NCBI GenBank assembly: GCA_003696975.1
Contig: RFGT01000182.1
Location: forward strand, 1-35,732
Direction: 5' to 3'
Origin: Nitrospirota bacterium
GTDB lineage: Bacteria > Nitrospirota > Nitrospiria > Nitrospirales > UBA8639
DNA: 35,732 nucleotides
Position numbers and translations under genes: made by a program. Of the stretch, positions 22,423 through 30,658 are shown piece after piece. A model generated the notes under the pieces. It saw only the letters and a program-made list of their open reading frames with translations. It made no database searches and was not told where the DNA came from. The first letter of the stretch is position 1, and every line of letters begins with the position of its first letter.

Positions 22423-23358
22423 TTATTTGGCCCGTTCGATCACCAAGGCTTTGTCGTTCGGGAGCAGGATCGCTCGAATGCGGTCGCCGAATTTGAACTC
22501 TTCGGTCATCTTGGTCTTTTCCGTTCGTTCCACGCGAATCTCTCCCCGCTCGCCGCGCAAGACATAAAAATCGCCGTCAACCATCAACACCTCACCCTCC
22601 ACTACGCGGGTCTCCGGTTCTGCTGAACCTGCGGCCTGCTCCGGCATTGGCGACAGGGCAGAAGGTTTGCCTGATGTTTTCGGTGCAGGAGCCGCTTCCT
22701 TGGCCATGGCAGGCGCTGCTGGAGCTTCATGGATAATCACGCCGGGCAACTCATTCGGCCCCGCTCGCTCAATGGTCAAGGCTTTGTCGTTCATCAACGC
22801 CGTGGCTTTGATGCGATCGCCGAAATGAAATTCCTCGGCAATCTTGGTGTCCGGTGTGGCTTCTAGACGGATTTCACCCCGCTCACCGCGGACCACATAG
22901 AAGTCACCATCGATCATCAAGAGATCTCCGATAACGGTCTTGGTAGTTGGCCGTTGAGGGACCATTTGCCGCGGTTGTTGGGATTCAGGAGGCTTCTGCC
23001 CCCGTGCCATCGCGGGGGGTGTCTCCACGGGCTTGTTGATGGTGACCCCGGGAACGTCCGTCGGAGCGGCCCGCTCGATTCGCAAGGCTTGCCCATTCAT
23101 GAGCACAAGAGCCTTAATCCGGTCACCAAATCCAAATTCCTCGGTCACCTCGGTCTTGGAAGTGGCTTGAATTTGAATCTCTCCCCGCTCGCCGCGGACG
23201 ATGTACAGATCTCGATCGATCATGAGCAAATCTCCCACGATGGTTTTGGTGGGCTGCTGAACCTCAGGACCTTGAGCCAACACTTGCGGCACGGCTTCCC
23301 CTCCGGTCACCACCATCGCCACCAGAAGCAGACCTCTCAGGAGCCTCACGTTGTTCAT
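22423..23358 (-). CDS. Exported protein made of three 59-residue tandem modules
   Basis: This 311-residue protein begins with a signal peptide (hydrophobic LLRGLLLVAMVVTGG, cleavage likely near VLAQG). It then has three copies of one module at residues 39-97, 141-199 and 252-310, each running about GDLLMIDGDFYVVRGERGEI, then EEF-FGDRIKA and ending NDKALxIERA. The modules are joined by Pro/Ala-rich linkers of 40-50 residues. The strand-rich, charged pattern suggests a small beta-barrel such as an OB or SH3-like fold; that is inference. I know of no named family. It probably works in the periplasm or on the outer membrane. A GGGGGTGA ribosome binding site precedes the ATG. It follows ecfT by 150 bases. 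Confidence 0.8.
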   Translation of the reverse strand: MNNVRLLRGLLLVAMVVTGGEAVPQVLAQGPEVQQPTKTIVGDLLMIDRDLYIVRGERGEIQIQATSKTEVTEEFGFGDRIKALVLMNGQALRIERAAPTDVPGVTINKPVETPPAMARGQKPPESQQPRQMVPQRPTTKTVIGDLLMIDGDFYVVRGERGEIRLEATPDTKIAEEFHFGDRIKATALMNDKALTIERAGPNELPGVIIHEAPAAPAMAKEAAPAPKTSGKPSALSPMPEQAAGSAEPETRVVEGEVLMVDGDFYVLRGERGEIRVERTEKTKMTEEFKFGDRIRAILLPNDKALVIERAK

Positions 23359-23508: not shown

Positions 23509-24306
23509 TTATCTCCGCGCCATCATGGTTTCAATAGTACCATACCCGTGTACTCGCAACCAGACACACCCGAGTAAAACCCCAGCACAAACTCCCAGTG
23601 CCAGCACATCAACTCGAGTGAGAGTCGATGGCTCGATCACCCGTCTCCGCCGCCCAGGGCCAATGCCTTTGGACTCCAGGGCCATCGCGAGGAGATTTGT
23701 CCGGCGAAGCGTATGGCCAATCAGTGGGACTACCAGGAGAGAATAGCGCCGAATTTTTTGAACCATCGAGCCTGCGGCCATATCGAGCCCCCGAGAGCGC
23801 TGCGCTTGAAGAATTCCCGCAATACCCGTGATAAGTGTGGGGACCCACCGGAATGCCAGAGAAAGTGCAAACCCCACAGATTGAGGGACGCCCAATCGAG
23901 ACAGCGCATAGGTAAAATCCTCAATGGTGGTCGTGGACAGAAAGAGGATGCCGCTCATGACCATCGCGTTCAACCGAAGCCCCATGCCCACACCATGAAT
24001 GATGCCTTCCATGGTCACCACATACGTGCCTATCTTCACGATTGGTCGTTGTCCCTCGATAAAGATGGGCCACAACACCGCGCTATAAACAAACAACAGC
24101 ACCAGAAGCACCCACAGTCTCCGCACGTTGACCATGGCATGCGCGAGGGTAGTGCCAGCCAGAAGTCCCACTACGAGAACCGATAAATACCGGGGATCGG
24201 AAAACAACACCGCCATCGCAAAGGTGGTTAGAAGACCTGCGAACTTCGTGCGGGCGTCCAGCCGGTGAATCCAGGTCTCGGCGTCCAGATACAGCGAGTG
24301 TTTCAT
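23509..24306 (-). CDS. ecfT: ECF transporter transmembrane subunit EcfT
   Basis: This 265-residue membrane protein (about five or six hydrophobic segments) couples the ECF ATPases to the vitamin-binding S-component. The two coupling-helix motifs are present: AQRSRGLDM and ALESKGIGP. In the second, the usual Ala-Arg-Gly reads Ser-Lys-Gly. The start overlaps the stop of the S-component/ATPase fusion (ATGA, 24303-24306), so the two are co-translated. Confidence 0.9.
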   Translation of the reverse strand: MKHSLYLDAETWIHRLDARTKFAGLLTTFAMAVLFSDPRYLSVLVVGLLAGTTLAHAMVNVRRLWVLLVLLFVYSAVLWPIFIEGQRPIVKIGTYVVTMEGIIHGVGMGLRLNAMVMSGILFLSTTTIEDFTYALSRLGVPQSVGFALSLAFRWVPTLITGIAGILQAQRSRGLDMAAGSMVQKIRRYSLLVVPLIGHTLRRTNLLAMALESKGIGPGRRRRVIEPSTLTRVDVLALGVCAGVLLGCVWLRVHGYGTIETMMARR

Positions 24307-26753
24307 ACGATCTTCAGCGACGCTTGCACTTCTTCCACTGTGAGCAAGGTCACACCCCAGTGCTGGGCAAACCTCGTCACGGCCGGCAGTTCCAGTGAGG
24401 CGGCCGCCACGAAATCCGCATTGGCGAACACCTGCCGAGGCGGTCCGTCCATCATGAGCGTGCCATCCTGCATCACCAAGCAGCGTGAGGCATATCGGGC
24501 CACCAACTCCACGGTATGGGTGATCATGACAACAGTATGACCCTGTTGTTGGAGTCGCACCATGACCTCCAGCATGCAGTCGGTCTCTCGAGCATCCAGC
24601 CCGGTATTCGGCTCGTCAAAGATCAGAATCTTGGGGCGTGCCGCCAGCACCGAGGCCACGGCGACTCGCTGCCGTTCGCCTTTGGTCAAGGAAAAAGGAT
24701 CGCGCTGCTCAGTCCCTTCCAATCCAACGGCCTCGAGCGCTTCTCGCACCCGGTGCCGGCATTCCTCCGGAGGACATCCCACATTCTTCACGCCAAACGC
24801 AACTTCCTCCCATACGGTTTCCGCGAAAATTTGTTGATCGGGATTCTGAAACACATACCCAACCAGCGTCACCATACGCCGCATCTCGATTGTTCGCGTA
24901 TCATGGCCAAAAACGCGAACACTCCCTTCCCTGGGCATGAGCAACCCATTGAGCAGTTGAGCCAAGGTGCTCTTGCCTGAGCCATTCCGGCCCACGATGC
25001 CTACAAACTCGCCAGCACGGATGGTAACGGACACATGTTTGAGGGCAGGCCGATTCGCAGATTCATACCAATAGGATACGCGATCGAGTTCCAGCGCCGG
25101 AGTCGATGAGACAGCGCCGGCAAGGAACCGACGAGAGGCAGGAGCTTCGCGTATCATGGAAGGGACACACAGGGTCAAGCTATGACGGCGGGCAGCATCC
25201 ATGGCTTCTTCCAGCGTGATAGGAAGTTCTGGAAGCTTCAGGTGTTCGAAACACTGTGCGAAGGGAGTCGGACGAACACCAAACTGGAGGGCGATGTGGG
25301 GCTGGCGCAGGAACGCATCCGGCCTTCCCTCCCAGACGAGCATACCTTGATCCAGGAGACAGACTCGATCGGCCCACAACACAACTTCCGGGTCATGCTC
25401 AGTGAGCACGATTGTCACACCTCTCTGTCGCAGTTGATGCAGCAATTCAAGCAACTGCCTCCGGCCAACGGGATCCAAATCCGTCATCGGCTGATCCATC
25501 ACCACCACGGCCGGTTCTCGCACCAGCACGGATCCCACGACCAGGCGCTGGCGCTGTCCTCCGGAGAGCGACCCCGGATCGCGACGTTCCAACCCTGAGA
25601 GTCCAATCACCTCTAGGGTGCGGTGGATGCGGTCCTTCAGCGCGTGGATCTCTTCCTGACGCGCGTGTCCGCTCTCCAGGGGAACACGCAACTCAGCTTC
25701 CACGTTTGTGGAGATGAGTTGGGTATCGAAATCCTGAAAAACGACCCCGACGGTTTCCGCCAGCTTCCAGACAGGACAGTGAACCGTATCCACCCCCTTG
25801 ACTTGCACGCTGCCAGAAACTTCCCCCGGCCAAAAGTGTGGAACCAACCCATTCAGGGCATAACATAAGGTGGATTTGCCTGAGCCACTCCGCCCCATCA
25901 CCACTACCCATTCCCCGGGAAAGAGGTCGAGCGACACATGTGAAAGAGCGGGACGAGAAGATCCCGCGTAGTGAAACGTGAGATTGCGCACTGACAGAAG
26001 CGCCGACGACCGAGATCCCGGCTGTGAGGTCTGTTGGGAGAGCAGTGTCGCCCCTGGCGCCATCGGCGAATCCCTCTCCGGATCTCCCACTGGATCTCCT
26101 CCCCGATTTTTCACTCCCTCTAATTGAGGGGGCACAGGCCGGAGATCTCGATACAACAATCCCCACCGCTTGACCCGGGGATAGAGAAAGTACAAGAGCG
26201 GCGGGCCTAACAGTAAGCCCATAATCACGTTATTGAAAAAGATCGCTGGAGCCAGGACGGCAAAGGGGAGGAGGCCCAGTACCTCCACACCCCAGGCGAT
26301 CGTCGCAGCACAGGCCCACGAGGCCAGAAGACAGACGACGACAAACTCCACAGCTTGGCGCCACGACGTACAGCCAGGCTCACATCTTGAGGAGAGAGGA
26401 CCCATATTTCCCCACAAGAGATAGGGGATATATCCAAAAAGCATGTTGCCGGCAAATCCAAACACACTGGCCGGCCCCAACGTCCCAAAACAATCACCGA
26501 TGAGGTTCCCCAACCCCGCACCCCAGGCGGCCGCAGGGCCGAAGAGCAGGGACGTAACCAAGGGAATCGCGTTGGCTGGACGCAGCTCGGCAAACCCCGG
26601 AATCAGCGGAATGCCGACTTTGAATGGAATCAGAATCGCCGCATAGATCGCCGCGATTTGTGCGGTCAGGACAATCAGTCGCGTGTCGCGCCAGACATGG
26701 GAGAGTTCCGTTAGCCAACGGAGTGGTGACCATGGAGATATCTGAATCCACAT
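24303..26753 (-). CDS. ECF transporter fusion: S-component plus two ATPase domains in one chain
   Basis: This 816-residue protein contains three parts normally encoded apart. Residues 1-200 are a membrane S-component (about six segments, including LRPANAIPLVTSLLFGP and GNLIGDCFG). After a loose linker come ATPase 1 (Walker A GRSGSGKST 287-295, LSGGQ 396-400, Walker B VVVMDQPMTDLD) and ATPase 2 (GRNGSGKST 588-596, ILIFDEPNTGLD). Two oddities fall in one composite site: Gln421 replaces the catalytic Glu in ATPase 1, and ATPase 2 has LTKGE (689-693) for LSGGQ. The other site is intact. The substrate is unknown; ECF systems import vitamins or metal ions. ATG 26753 lies two bases after the nucleotidase stop; a TTG at 26759 is the alternative. 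Confidence 0.88.
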   Translation of the reverse strand: MWIQISPWSPLRWLTELSHVWRDTRLIVLTAQIAAIYAAILIPFKVGIPLIPGFAELRPANAIPLVTSLLFGPAAAWGAGLGNLIGDCFGTLGPASVFGFAGNMLFGYIPYLLWGNMGPLSSRCEPGCTSWRQAVEFVVVCLLASWACAATIAWGVEVLGLLPFAVLAPAIFFNNVIMGLLLGPPLLYFLYPRVKRWGLLYRDLRPVPPQLEGVKNRGGDPVGDPERDSPMAPGATLLSQQTSQPGSRSSALLSVRNLTFHYAGSSRPALSHVSLDLFPGEWVVVMGRSGSGKSTLCYALNGLVPHFWPGEVSGSVQVKGVDTVHCPVWKLAETVGVVFQDFDTQLISTNVEAELRVPLESGHARQEEIHALKDRIHRTLEVIGLSGLERRDPGSLSGGQRQRLVVGSVLVREPAVVVMDQPMTDLDPVGRRQLLELLHQLRQRGVTIVLTEHDPEVVLWADRVCLLDQGMLVWEGRPDAFLRQPHIALQFGVRPTPFAQCFEHLKLPELPITLEEAMDAARRHSLTLCVPSMIREAPASRRFLAGAVSSTPALELDRVSYWYESANRPALKHVSVTIRAGEFVGIVGRNGSGKSTLAQLLNGLLMPREGSVRVFGHDTRTIEMRRMVTLVGYVFQNPDQQIFAETVWEEVAFGVKNVGCPPEECRHRVREALEAVGLEGTEQRDPFSLTKGERQRVAVASVLAARPKILIFDEPNTGLDARETDCMLEVMVRLQQQGHTVVMITHTVELVARYASRCLVMQDGTLMMDGPPRQVFANADFVAAASLELPAVTRFAQHWGVTLLTVEEVQASLKIV

Positions 26754-26755
26754 TG

Positions 26756-28476
26756 TCAAGGGGCAAGAGGAGATAACGCGGCAGACGCCGAAACAATCTG
26801 AATTCGATGGTCACGAATGGCCGTGAGAGGGCCTCGTCTGAAAGCCTTAAGCAGGACATCGCGGATGGGAACCTGATGATCAATCCGCTGGCTGGCTTGC
26901 CTGAACATCGTGTAGCCATCGCCTCCGTCAGCCAGAAATGCATCGGTCACGATAAAATATCGTCCACTTGGATCAAGCGGCTTTCCCTTGACGGCGACCG
27001 CCTGAACCCGCGAGCCTGGAGGCATCGAGAGGTCATAGATTACCTGGAGGCCGGAAAGCTGAAGAAACCGTCCGGAGGCCTCAGGAAGAAATCGCGCACT
27101 GTTTTCTAGGGCAGCCAAAAGTTGCCGTCCTGTGATTCGCAGAGTCACCACTGATGAATCGAACGGCAAGGCTGACAAGACCTGGCCGAGCGTGACAGTC
27201 CCGGCTGGAATAGTAGCCCGAATCTGCCCGCTGTTGATCAGCGCGATATCCTGTGCGAATTCGCGGCACAACAAGTCCGCCAGCAGATTGCCGAAGTTGG
27301 TCTCCCTGGTTCGGACTGCAGCCCGTTCGCCCACGAGCGTGACGAGTGCTTGTCCAACCGGCTGAAGCGCCTGACGCGCAAATTGACGCCGGTACCGTTC
27401 CAACAGCGCTGCAACCTGAGGGTGAGAGGGAGGAACTTGGCCACCGGGAGATTGCGAGCCTTGGCACGGAGAATACGGCCGTGATCCACCAAGAGGTCCA
27501 GCCGGCCCAGTGTTCGGCCCTGACGGTGGGTCTTTACGAACACACGCCCGGGATCGGCAAGTTCCTGCACTGGGCGGTCCAGTTTGGGAGTCCACAGCCC
27601 ATCAAATCCTTCCGTATGTCCGCCGATGATGACATCAATCTCCGGAATATCTTCTAACAAGTCCAGGTCTTCGCGAGTATCTTGGTGGGTGAGTACCACC
27701 ACAAGATCCACCAGGCCGGCCTGTTTCCAGGCTCGGGCTTGAGCTTGAACCGTCTCCTGTGGATCACGTAAGGCCAGAACCTCGACCACCTCACGATTGA
27801 ACGTATCCGGGAAATTGCTGCGCCCGACCACACCGAGGAGCCCAATGGTCACTGATCCCACTTGAATGGTCGCAGTCCGCTGGCACGGCAGGGTGGCTCG
27901 GACACTCATCAGGTTCGTACAGAGAATGGGGAACTCGGCCCATTGGCGGAGTTGCCGTAGGTGTTCCAGGCCATAATCGAAGTCATGATTTCCAGCAACC
28001 ATAGCCTGGTATCCCAGGAGATTCATGGCCTTGATGTCCGGCTCACCTCGAAACCACGAAGAGAGAGGCGTCCCGACCAAGATATCTCCGGAATCCACAA
28101 GGAGCACATTGGAGGTCTCCTGCCGCACGCGGTCAACGACAGTCGCCCGCCTCGCGAATCCCCCTATATTAACCAGACCTGGCTGATCCAAAGGTAACGC
28201 GACCCCATGGTGTTCGCTGCTGTGCAAGATCGTGATCCATTCTTTTGCCCATGCCCACCTGGAAAATCCGCTGCTGAGGAGACCAACTCCTAGGATGGCC
28301 AAGAGGAGGAGACGTGAGCCTAACCGCAATGCCCCTCTCTTGCGCAGCCTGGTCGTAGAACTGGGGCCCCTGTTCCAATGAAGGCTCAACCGGCGTGGTC
28401 CGCGTAGGAGAGCAATCACACTACGGGATCGCTTGCCGGTCGAGTGCTCGTTGGATGCCGCCGTCAGCACAGGCAT
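26756..28476 (-). pseudogene. Exported 5'-nucleotidase (UshA/YfkN type) interrupted by a one-base frameshift
   Basis: Two overlapping frames make one protein of about 570 residues. The N-terminal frame (28476 to about 27447) has an Arg-rich start, a hydrophobic export segment (LGSRLLLLAILGVGLL) and the metallophosphatase motifs ILHSSEHHG, DSGDILVGTPLS, GNHDFDYG, LTHQD and GGHTEG. The C-terminal frame (about 27447 to 26756) has the substrate domain: TRETNFGNLLADLL, NSGQIRATIPAG and FLADGGDGYTMF. They join at RNLPV/GQVPPSHPQV if one G is restored near 27440-27450. This may be a true mutation or a sequence error, since both halves look well conserved. The start is uncertain. It lies 34 bases after egtB and ends two bases before the ECF fusion. 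Confidence 0.85.
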
Positions 28477-28510
28477 CCTCCCATCCCCCGGAGAAAAACA
28501 TCTCACCGAC

Positions 28511-29725
28511 CTAGCCGGGATGCACGCACCGAAAGCCTGCGTGAACATAGGGATAGTCCTGGCGAAACCAGTTTCGAAAGGATCGGCGCAGCAAATCTCG
28601 AGGGGTTGTGGGAGATGCGCCTTTCATCACGAAATGATCCTGATCGAAAAATCGCGCGGAGTATCCCGGATAGGTGGGGTAGGGCTCAAACCCTTCAAAC
28701 GGATGAAATGGCGTGGCTGTCCATTCCCATCCATTACCCACGAGTTGTGCTACGCCAAAGTCACTATCACCTGCGGGAGTGGCCGTCACGGGAATAGGAT
28801 CCCAATACGCGAAATGAAAATTTCCCCGTGATTCATCTGGAGGATCGTTCCCCCAGGGATAGGCCCGTTCATCTCCGTGGCGTGTGGCATAGGCCGCTCG
28901 GTGGAGCTGCGCTTCCGTCGGTAACGCCAGCCCCGCCCAATTCGCATACGCTTGGGCTTCCCGTTGGGACACATACACGGGGCAATGCGGCGGAAGAGGT
29001 ATCTCTCCAAACGTCGTGAGGAGAAACCACTGCCTACCTCGCCTTCTCCAAAATGGAGGGGGATTGGCGCCGTCTTCGACGAATTTCAGATATTGTTCGT
29101 TGGTCACCTTGTATTTGCTGATGGCAAAGGCCGGAACCTGCACGACATGGCGCTCAAATTCATTGTCCCACCCGAAGCCTTCCTCACGGGTGCGGCCCAG
29201 CGTTGCAGGCCCCTCGGGAATCTCAATCATGTGATGAATAGGTGGCGGAGCGGCTGGTAGTGGTCGAAGAGCCGGAGCTATCTTCATCGTGTTTGGCAGG
29301 CGATGAAGCAGATAGGCGGTTGTCTCCGCATGCATCCATCGATGCTCGATTGCCATATGGAGCACCTCTGGCGGTGCCTGGTCAAGCACGCGGTCGATTT
29401 CTCGCCGGACTTGTCCATTGTATTGGTAGACATCCTTGACCGCGGGCCAGTCTTGCGGGCGATCAGAAGACGCTTCTCCGACTGGAGGGTCGATGCCCGC
29501 TTCGAACAACTGGTCGAATTCTGGATGAAACGACGCTAATCCCAGAGTCCAACGGCAGATCTGATTCCAATCAAAAGCTTCTAAATGGCCTAGATAAAAG
29601 ATGAGTCGATGCCGCTCAGGAATGGGCCGTTCGTAAAGGGCATTCGGTTTGATCAATGAAAAGATGGCATCCGTACAGGCTCGGGCGGCGGTCAAAGCTG
29701 TACGCAATTCAACAGAAGCTGGCAT
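28511..29725 (-). CDS. egtB: EgtB-like sulfoxide synthase (DinB plus formylglycine-enzyme domains)
   Basis: This 404-residue non-heme iron enzyme is predicted to join a thiol to hercynine in ergothioneine synthesis. The N-terminal DinB-like four-helix part carries His47 (YLGHLEAF) and His128/His132 (IEHRWMHAE), matching in spacing the iron ligands His51, His134 and His138 of mycobacterial EgtB. Residues about 165-404 are the formylglycine-generating-enzyme-like domain (VPAFAISKYKVTNEQYLKF, GNGWEWTATPFHP, GFRCVHPG). It lacks that enzyme's role because of the DinB part. With no egtA or egtC here, cysteine or another sulfur donor may be used directly. The ATG at 29725 is chosen over 29731 because GGAG is then eight bases away. 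It is divergent from the transporter genes. Confidence 0.85.
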   Translation of the reverse strand: MPASVELRTALTAARACTDAIFSLIKPNALYERPIPERHRLIFYLGHLEAFDWNQICRWTLGLASFHPEFDQLFEAGIDPPVGEASSDRPQDWPAVKDVYQYNGQVRREIDRVLDQAPPEVLHMAIEHRWMHAETTAYLLHRLPNTMKIAPALRPLPAAPPPIHHMIEIPEGPATLGRTREEGFGWDNEFERHVVQVPAFAISKYKVTNEQYLKFVEDGANPPPFWRRRGRQWFLLTTFGEIPLPPHCPVYVSQREAQAYANWAGLALPTEAQLHRAAYATRHGDERAYPWGNDPPDESRGNFHFAYWDPIPVTATPAGDSDFGVAQLVGNGWEWTATPFHPFEGFEPYPTYPGYSARFFDQDHFVMKGASPTTPRDLLRRSFRNWFRQDYPYVHAGFRCVHPG

Positions 29726-29858: not shown

Positions 29859-29911
29859 ACCCTGCACGCTTCAAGCAAAACTCAAGCCGTGGATCTTGAG
29901 GAGTATGATCG

Positions 29912-30658
29912 ATGTCCCTTCCCGCCTTGGACGTGATTGACGTCACCAAACGCTATGCCAACGGCGTGGTAGCCCTGCAGCACGTCTCACTCGCCGTGGC
30001 TCAAGGAGAAACCCTGGTCTTGATCGGCGAGAGCGGCTCGGGGAAGACAACGTTACTACGATTGTTTAATCGCATGGAACAGCCTACTACCGGTGTGGTT
30101 CGGATACAGGGACAATCTGTTGAGGACATGGATCCCATCACTCTACGACGCCATATCGGATACGTCCAGCAGGATGGTGGCTTACTCCCCCATTGGACAG
30201 TCCAGCACAATATCGGACTTGTCCCCACTCTCCTTCGCTGGCCCGCAGATCACATTTTTCAGCGGACCTCTACCCTCCTCGAATTGGTCAACTTATCCCC
30301 AAGCATCTACGCCGGCCGGTATCCCGCCGAACTATCCGGCGGGGAACGCCAGCGCGTGGCCTTCGCCCGCGCACTGGCCGCCGACCCGGACATTGTGTTG
30401 CTCGATGAACCATTCGGAGCACTCGATGCCATCACGCGCAATGAGTTGCAAGAACAATTTCTCAAGATCAAACACACCCTCCAAAAAACCATGGTGTTTG
30501 TCACGCATGACTTACATGAAGCTTTTCGCCTGGGTGATCGGATCGCCATTCTGCACGCGGGACAAGTCCGACAGGTGGACACCCCGCAAGCGCTCCTTGA
30601 GCACCCTGCCGATGCGTATGTTCGCACTTTGTTGGCCTATTATCGGAGGGAAGTATGA
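29912..30658 (+). CDS. ABC transporter ATPase of the betaine/ergothioneine uptake family (EgtV-like)
   Basis: This 248-residue cassette ATPase has GESGSGKTT, the Q-loop in IGYVQQDGGLLPHWTV, LSGGERQR, IVLLDEPFGALD and the switch His in VTHDLHEAF. It is closest to the OpuCA/ProV group but ends without the paired CBS domains that sense ionic strength in OpuA-type systems, which argues against classic osmoregulation. The next gene overlaps by ATGA (30655-30658) and provides the binding and membrane parts. GGAG lies eight bases before the ATG. Position between egtB and egtD suggests ergothioneine or its precursors as cargo; glycine betaine or choline remain possible. Confidence 0.92.
   Translation: MSLPALDVIDVTKRYANGVVALQHVSLAVAQGETLVLIGESGSGKTTLLRLFNRMEQPTTGVVRIQGQSVEDMDPITLRRHIGYVQQDGGLLPHWTVQHNIGLVPTLLRWPADHIFQRTSTLLELVNLSPSIYAGRYPAELSGGERQRVAFARALAADPDIVLLDEPFGALDAITRNELQEQFLKIKHTLQKTMVFVTHDLHEAFRLGDRIAILHAGQVRQVDTPQALLEHPADAYVRTLLAYYRREV

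Follow-up and report, generated by a model that had tools for sequence, protein, structure and literature searches.

A putative ECF importer of Nitrospirales in which one ATP site appears degenerate and the other consensus

Each nucleotide site of an ABC system is built from the Walker A, Walker B, Q-loop and H-loop of one ATPase together with its partner's signature (PMC7756269, PMC7544095), and in ECF ATPases the Q-loop is followed by a Q-helix motif, X-P-D/E-X-Q-hydrophobic (PMC6828968). Comparable ATPases are found in group II EcfAA'T modules. In that of L. delbrueckii, a Glu-to-Gln change in either ATPase is reported to cause severe growth defects where uptake is needed, the mutant motors having ATPase activity not above background, and the double mutant is reported to bind two ATPs, close, drive the coupling helices and expel the S component (PMC10368641). 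In ABCB1, the substitution E556M is described as locking ATP in site 1 and stopping transport, which is regained through weaker ATP binding when G1178R, Q1180E and S474E are added (PMC7544095). Degenerate sites are also reported for the Bacillus subtilis type II importers RbsA and NupO (PMC11466899), and the idea is therefore not new for importers in general. A search of the open PMC literature, with subscription papers and supplements outside its scope, returned no description of a degenerate site in an ECF transporter.

The window analysed here is the whole stretch of 35,732 nucleotides from a Nitrospirota bacterium, and its relevant features are listed in Table 1. Translation and Pfam matches show that an S component and two ATPases, A1 and A2, are domains of one 818-residue chain, and the next gene encodes the sole T component match in the genome. 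The two ATPases named in the preliminary description thus share a chain that also bears the S component. The ATPases score 433.5 bits with the ECF ATPase model TIGR04520 (cut-off 315), a match in two stretches whose score sums the two domains, and ECF ATPase structures match A1 and A2 with Z about 30–33 in comparisons with an AlphaFold2 model. The S domain lies above the cut-off for the QueT family (PF06177) of ECF S components, and the T component is assigned by Pfam to the CbiQ family of ECF T components, scoring under the cut-off of the NCBIfam cobalt-specific CbiQ model. With S, A and T encoded together and a single T gene in the genome, the locus has the organization of a group I (dedicated) ECF system. 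We found no exporter transmembrane domains of the type I BSEP/CFTR-like kind; the membrane parts are the QueT-like S and CbiQ-like T components. The A2 sequence NPDQQI fits the Q-helix motif, and A1 DFDTQL has the D and Q, with Phe for Pro. In the T component, coupling motif 1 is S/A-R-G, and in coupling motif 2 Lys takes the place of Arg in 46 of 50 distinct T sequences (3 have Arg and 1 a gap), which makes the contacts with the two ATPases asymmetric as well.

Table 1. Positions in the window of the importer genes, their domains and ATP-site motifs, and the adjoining nucleotidase gene.
Feature	Position	Strand	Basis or remark
S-A1-A2 fusion ORF, 818 aa	24303..26759	(-)	translation; TTG start, ATG two codons downstream
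S component domain, QueT-like, residues 29-193	26181..26675	(-)	Pfam QueT PF06177, 60.2 bits, cut-off 33.7
S-A1 linker, residues 210-250	26010..26132	(-)	predicted disordered, pLDDT <50
ATPase domain A1, residues ~254-487	25299..26000	(-)	ABC_tran and ECF ATPase models; structure match
A1 Walker A GRSGSGKST, site I	25869..25895	(-)	two relatives (L023/L032, L029/L079) lack Gly4
A1 signature LSGGQ, site II, consensus	25554..25568	(-)	SGG in 46/46 rows
A1 Gln423 for catalytic Glu, site I	25491..25493	(-)	codon CAG; Q 22, E 20, D 4 in 46 rows
A1 switch His455, site I	25395..25397	(-)	kept in window copy; lost in 10/46 rows
ATPase domain A2, residues ~557-802	24354..25091	(-)	ABC_tran and ECF ATPase models
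A2 Walker A GRNGSGKST, site II, consensus	24966..24992	(-)	Gly4 kept in 46/46
A2 signature LTKGE for LSGGQ, residues 691-695, site I	24675..24689	(-)	position 3 K 45, R 1 of 46
A2 catalytic Glu716, site II, consensus	24612..24614	(-)	E in 45/45 readable rows, one masked
A2 switch His748, site II, consensus	24516..24518	(-)	H in 45/45 readable rows, one masked
T component, CbiQ family	23509..24306	(-)	Pfam CbiQ 107.3 bits, above cut-off
5'-nucleotidase, two overlapping frames (Metallophos ORF, 5_nucleotid_C ORF)	26756-28548	(-)	

The translation of the fusion gene contains LSGGQRQRLVVGSVLVREPAVVVMDQPMTDLD in A1 and FSLTKGERQRVAVASVLAARPKILIFDEPNTGLD in A2. Both substitutions named in the preliminary description, Gln for the catalytic Glu of A1 and LTKGE for LSGGQ in A2, are present at exactly the coordinates it gave (Table 1), and its placing of the two in one composite site is borne out. 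Because such a site joins the Walker B of one ATPase with the signature of its partner, Gln423 and LTKGE both belong to site I, which comprises the A1 Walker A, Walker B and switch loop with the A2 signature and, as judged from its motifs, is degenerate. Site II, made up of the A2 Walker A, Walker B and switch loop with the A1 signature, is consensus throughout (GRNGSGKST, Glu716 and His748 with LSGGQ), as had also been claimed. The geometry agrees with an AlphaFold2 model built from 31 aligned orthologues (mean pLDDT 85.3, pTM 0.71), in which both ATPase domains can be superposed on the fused dimer DppD in its ATP-bound form (8wdb_D; Z 33.4, rmsd 2.9 Å, 483 residues) and on nucleotide-bound BSEP (8pmd; Z 30.0, 3.0 Å, 449 residues), and the A1–A2 arrangement is predicted to be that of an ATP-bound head-to-tail dimer.

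A catalytic Glu lost in one ATPase, an altered signature in its partner, a shared composite site and a consensus second site are the hallmarks of a degenerate-site transporter, and the loss of the first-ATPase Glu together with alteration of the second signature in the same composite site is what is seen in BSEP/ABCB11 and other degenerate-site exporters (CFTR, TAP, TM287/288). These differ in having an exporter transmembrane fold, whereas the window protein is assigned to the ECF importers. LTKGE is changed at the same two positions as the BSEP signature, in which G is R and Q is E, compared with G to K and Q to E here (PMC7544095); S474E, another of the rescuing changes in ABCB1, precedes the Q-loop Gln at a position occupied by Phe in the window protein. 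With the group II modules of L. delbrueckii and L. brevis the locus shares the ECF ATPase fold and a T component, and A1 and A2 match their chains, but the aligned wild-type ECF chains have LSGGQ and Glu, and both Glu residues are reported to be needed (PMC10368641). The window protein naturally bears the change that was engineered as a dead mutant in the Lactobacillus ECF module (PMC10368641), and Gln423 is notable because the single Glu-to-Gln mutants of that module are dead. Group I fused-ATPase importers such as YkoEDC of Bacillus subtilis likewise have a dedicated S component, a T component and a double ATPase in one chain (PMC5037267); the window protein differs in carrying S in the same chain and in the replaced A1 Glu, the motifs of YkoD lying outside this comparison. 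RbsA and NupO also resemble it, with two ATPases in one chain and one degenerate site, but their second half is described as degenerate with the Walker A Lys lost, and here it is the first half and the Lys is kept (PMC11466899).

Relatives were found at E 1e-60 in 49 of 235 genomes of the order, some as fragments at contig ends, and in 19 of 295 genomes drawn from across the phylum, where the genome G182 matches in the two ATPases only. Their records include Nitrospirales bacterium NPIRA03 and Nitrospira sp., and one (L034) is labelled Nitrospinota. Removal of nine duplicates and eight fragment rows from 63 matches left 46 tree rows, consisting of 44 Nitrospirales copies, in all of which the T gene adjoins the fusion, and the outgroups L026 and L038. 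The A1 catalytic residue is Gln in 22 of the Nitrospirales copies, encoded by CAG or CAA, Asp in 4 and Glu in 18 (Q 22, E 20 and D 4 over the 46 rows). The A2 signature is L[TRSP]KG[EDA] in 44/44, with Lys at position 3 in every one and LSGGQ in none, so that homologues with both Glu and LSGGQ, which would have marked the window protein as an isolated variant, were not encountered among these copies. Gln and LTKGE are nevertheless not strictly linked, and the co-conservation that an alignment of homologues might have revealed is rejected: LTKGE occurs together with Glu (for example in L206, L207, L288, L290 and L293), also in other phyla, and 18 of the Nitrospirales copies have Glu. A clade of 16 tree rows with LRKGE, 15 of which have Glu in A1, is nested among Gln rows, and a tree uniting all 22 Gln rows, as for a single Gln origin without reversal, is rejected (p-AU 0.006), which leaves a return to Glu in the LRKGE clade or several origins of Gln. 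A quick 116-row tree resolves this region differently from the 46-row tree.

Change has been concentrated in site I. On the 46-row tree, Fitch counts for A1 are 2 at Walker A Gly4 (G 44, D 1, S 1), 4 at the catalytic residue and 6 at the switch His (H 36, Q 9, R 1), with 0, 0 and 0 at the same positions of A2. A1 evolves a little faster overall (8.36 vs 6.94 changes per column); allowing for this and taking events as independent, 12 against 0 gives a binomial p of 7e-4, and leaving out the catalytic residue, which prompted the finding, 8 against 0 gives p 0.008 on the same terms. When every motif position is counted and S/T and L/M swaps are set aside, there are 23 changes in site I and 2 in site II (p 6e-5).

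We also gathered ECF ATPase pairs from other phyla, finding at least 235 among the best-scoring or listed matches and using 230 after L033, L035, L195, L291 and L051 were dropped for gaps; the tree of these 230 is a quick one under a simple model, and its change counts are approximate. Among the matches listed, the A2 catalytic residue is Glu and the A2 switch His is His in all 230, with 0 changes at either, compared with 5 changes at the A1 catalytic residue (E 202, Q 22, D 5, N 1) and 27 at the A1 switch His, kept in 142 and lost in 88 (Q 71, N 5, P 4, R 3, Y 3, A 1, E 1). In the same set, signature position 3 is other than Gly in A2 of 171 pairs (39 changes) and in A1 of 8 (8 changes), and signature positions 2/3/4 have 18/39/5 changes in A2 and 0/8/0 in A1. 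The 8 changes at A1 Gly4 in this tree, again among the matches listed, include a contig-edge misreading (L095) and a gap (L240). Walker A Gly4 of A2 is Ala in 12 fused pairs among the matches listed (4 changes), for example as GENAAGK in L224 and L238 with the site otherwise consensus, which we regard as a mild change in a consensus site.

The kind of defect differs between groups. Among the matches listed, 134 fused pairs outside Nitrospirales include 71 that have lost the A1 His and one that has lost the Glu (L209), 43 fused Nitrospirales pairs include 26 that have lost the Glu and 10 the His, and 53 adjacent pairs include 7 that have lost the His and one the Glu, the last being L087, a frame-split Nitrospirales copy. 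The catalytic Glu is thus lost in 27 of 44 Nitrospirales pairs (the 43 fused and L087) vs 1 of 186 others among the matches listed, and from these alignments its loss appears nearly confined to Nitrospirales. A milder asymmetry, with the A1 switch His lost and the A2 signature altered, occurs in double-ATPase ECF systems of several phyla. The preliminary description had thought a degenerate/consensus pairing notable in an ECF importer; the pairing stands, but it is not unique to the window protein, and site asymmetry appears to be widespread in double-ATPase ECF systems with Glu loss as its extreme form. Both sites are consensus in catalytic residue, His and signature SGG in adjacent EcfA-EcfA' pairs (TIGR04520) from the phylum of L047 (Niameybacter), namely L093, L122-L138 and L140-L150 among the matches listed. 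L209 has an A1 catalytic Asn, Gln for the switch His and the A2 signature LGLAE, and appears to represent a separate loss of the catalytic Glu. In L044 and L045, adjacent pairs from records titled Spirochaetota and Spirochaetales, A1 Gly4 is Cys/Ser, the switch His is Arg and the A2 signature is LTRSR with Glu kept, and site I there seems more degenerate by another route.

Alteration of the signature predates the loss of the Glu, since the outgroups L038, L181 and L182 combine L-x-[KR]-G-[EQ] with an intact Glu, as do many pairs from the phyla of L040 and L050. Events are less strictly ordered for the His, because among the matches listed eleven rows have lost the A1 His with Gly still at signature position 3. 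Independent-pair tests on the 116-row and 230-pair sets gave no significant link between an altered signature and A1 defects.

The ATP-binding residues of A1 are conserved. Among the matches listed, the A1 Walker A Lys is kept in 229/230 pairs, the remaining one being a gap at a contig end, the Walker B Asp is kept in 230/230, and the Q-loop residue is G in 5 rows and D in 2. In 13 close pairs, dN/dS is 0.02-0.10 for S, the lowest of the three domains, 0.07-0.19 for A1 and 0.05-0.26 for A2; A1 is under purifying selection and is held about as firmly as A2.

Taking these observations together, we think it probable that the locus encodes a dedicated (group I type) ECF importer, with S and both ATPases in one chain and T in the next gene, in which site I binds but does not hydrolyse ATP and site II alone acts as motor, in the manner of BSEP or CFTR. 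Site I would still bind Mg-ATP, because the Walker A Lys, Walker B Asp, Q-loop Gln and second Gly of the signature are kept, and would act as a clasp. ATP binding would push the tethered S component off the T platform, and site II, as sole motor, would spend one ATP per cycle and open the dimer afterwards. The older basic signature, L-x-K/R-G-E, may loosen ATP at site I, such that loss of the Glu leaves the dimer unlocked, as reported for BSEP-like changes in ABCB1; by this analogy the basic signature may have permitted the Glu loss. This model of a loose clasp and a motor is drawn from the L. delbrueckii mutants, the ABCB1 rescue and the matching positions of LTKGE. Some observations sit less easily with it: site I may work in the LRKGE clade, because 15/16 of its rows have Glu in A1, the window copy retains A1 His455 and has Phe at the position of the rescuing S474E, and all rows but one with Glu loss among the matches listed fall in one order. 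We extend this tentatively, at somewhat under even chances, to double-ATPase ECF importers as a class: site I would clasp ATP and site II alone would drive the machine, and Nitrospirales would have completed the change by dropping the Glu where an older basic signature already prevented the clasp from locking.

An alternative is that both sites hydrolyse ATP, with Gln (or Asp) and the altered signature making site I slow, and that the asymmetry only tunes rates. This would accommodate the nesting of an A1-Glu clade among Gln rows, the complete set of A1 ATP-binding residues and the intact A1 switch His of the window copy, but we consider it unlikely given that a single E-to-Q change in either L. 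delbrueckii ECF ATPase is reported to fail (PMC10368641), and a need for hydrolysis at site I is difficult to reconcile with loss of the A1 His 27 times and of the A2 His never (230 pairs, among the matches listed). That relatives differ in the residue lost, be it Glu, His or Walker A Gly4, is as expected under relaxed constraint, and site I might instead be decaying, with A1 losing nucleotide binding and turning into a scaffold that has no selected role. The dN/dS of A1, as low as that of A2, the Lys at signature position 3 that is invariant in the 44 Nitrospirales copies, and the absence of any readable row among the matches listed that has lost the A1 Walker A Lys or Walker B Asp argue against decay, and we give it a smaller chance than slow hydrolysis.

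A degenerate first site is also reported for ABCC7 (CFTR) and ABCC9 (PMC7756269), which raises the question of whether the complex has turned, as CFTR and SUR did, into a sensor or an ATP-gated device rather than a pump; with importer S and T components fused or adjacent and conserved, the lowest dN/dS in the S domain and a consensus site II, this seems very improbable. The neighbouring gene is frame-disrupted in the same assembly, as might be expected were the Gln a sequencing error or a one-off variant, but Gln is present in half of the Nitrospirales copies, from different genomes and with two codons, by which this explanation is ruled out for practical purposes. We therefore favour a non-hydrolysing site I paired with a hydrolysing site II.

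As to the substrate, a QueC-family gene is present in the same genome and in 205/235 genomes of the order, although its family, PF06508, may include other roles; queuosine salvage is thus not obviously needed, and assignment of the substrate through queuosine auxotrophy is not supported. A 5'-nucleotidase gene directly precedes the S-A1-A2 fusion here and in several relatives, and thereby hints at a nucleoside-like substrate. Nucleotidase matches occur in 20/80 loci, a count that includes the window's own locus and duplicates and in which many loci are too short to show the gene. The two parts of the nucleotidase are in one frame in L021 and L027, and its split in the window is either an assembly error or a recent disruption. 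Elsewhere in the window, the protein encoded by 22423-23358 (-) contains three repeats that resemble one another and matches the BOF OB-fold family below threshold, and 29894-30592 (+) has an ABC ATPase domain match with two in-frame TGA codons, either because the frame runs by chance past the end of a gene or because the gene is broken.

The importer probably runs on a single ATP engine, which is impossible for its laboratory-studied relative, and it would bring the degenerate-site design of exporters and RbsA-type importers into the ECF class. An ECF importer with one site apparently off could show which ATP event expels S and which resets the module, and the natural series of residues (Glu, Asp, Gln and Asn; His, Gln, Asn, Tyr and Pro) may be used to trace how a catalytic site is given up. 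If the one-motor reading were true of the class, ECF importers would have arrived at the BSEP/CFTR solution on their own, and each molecule imported would cost one ATP instead of two.
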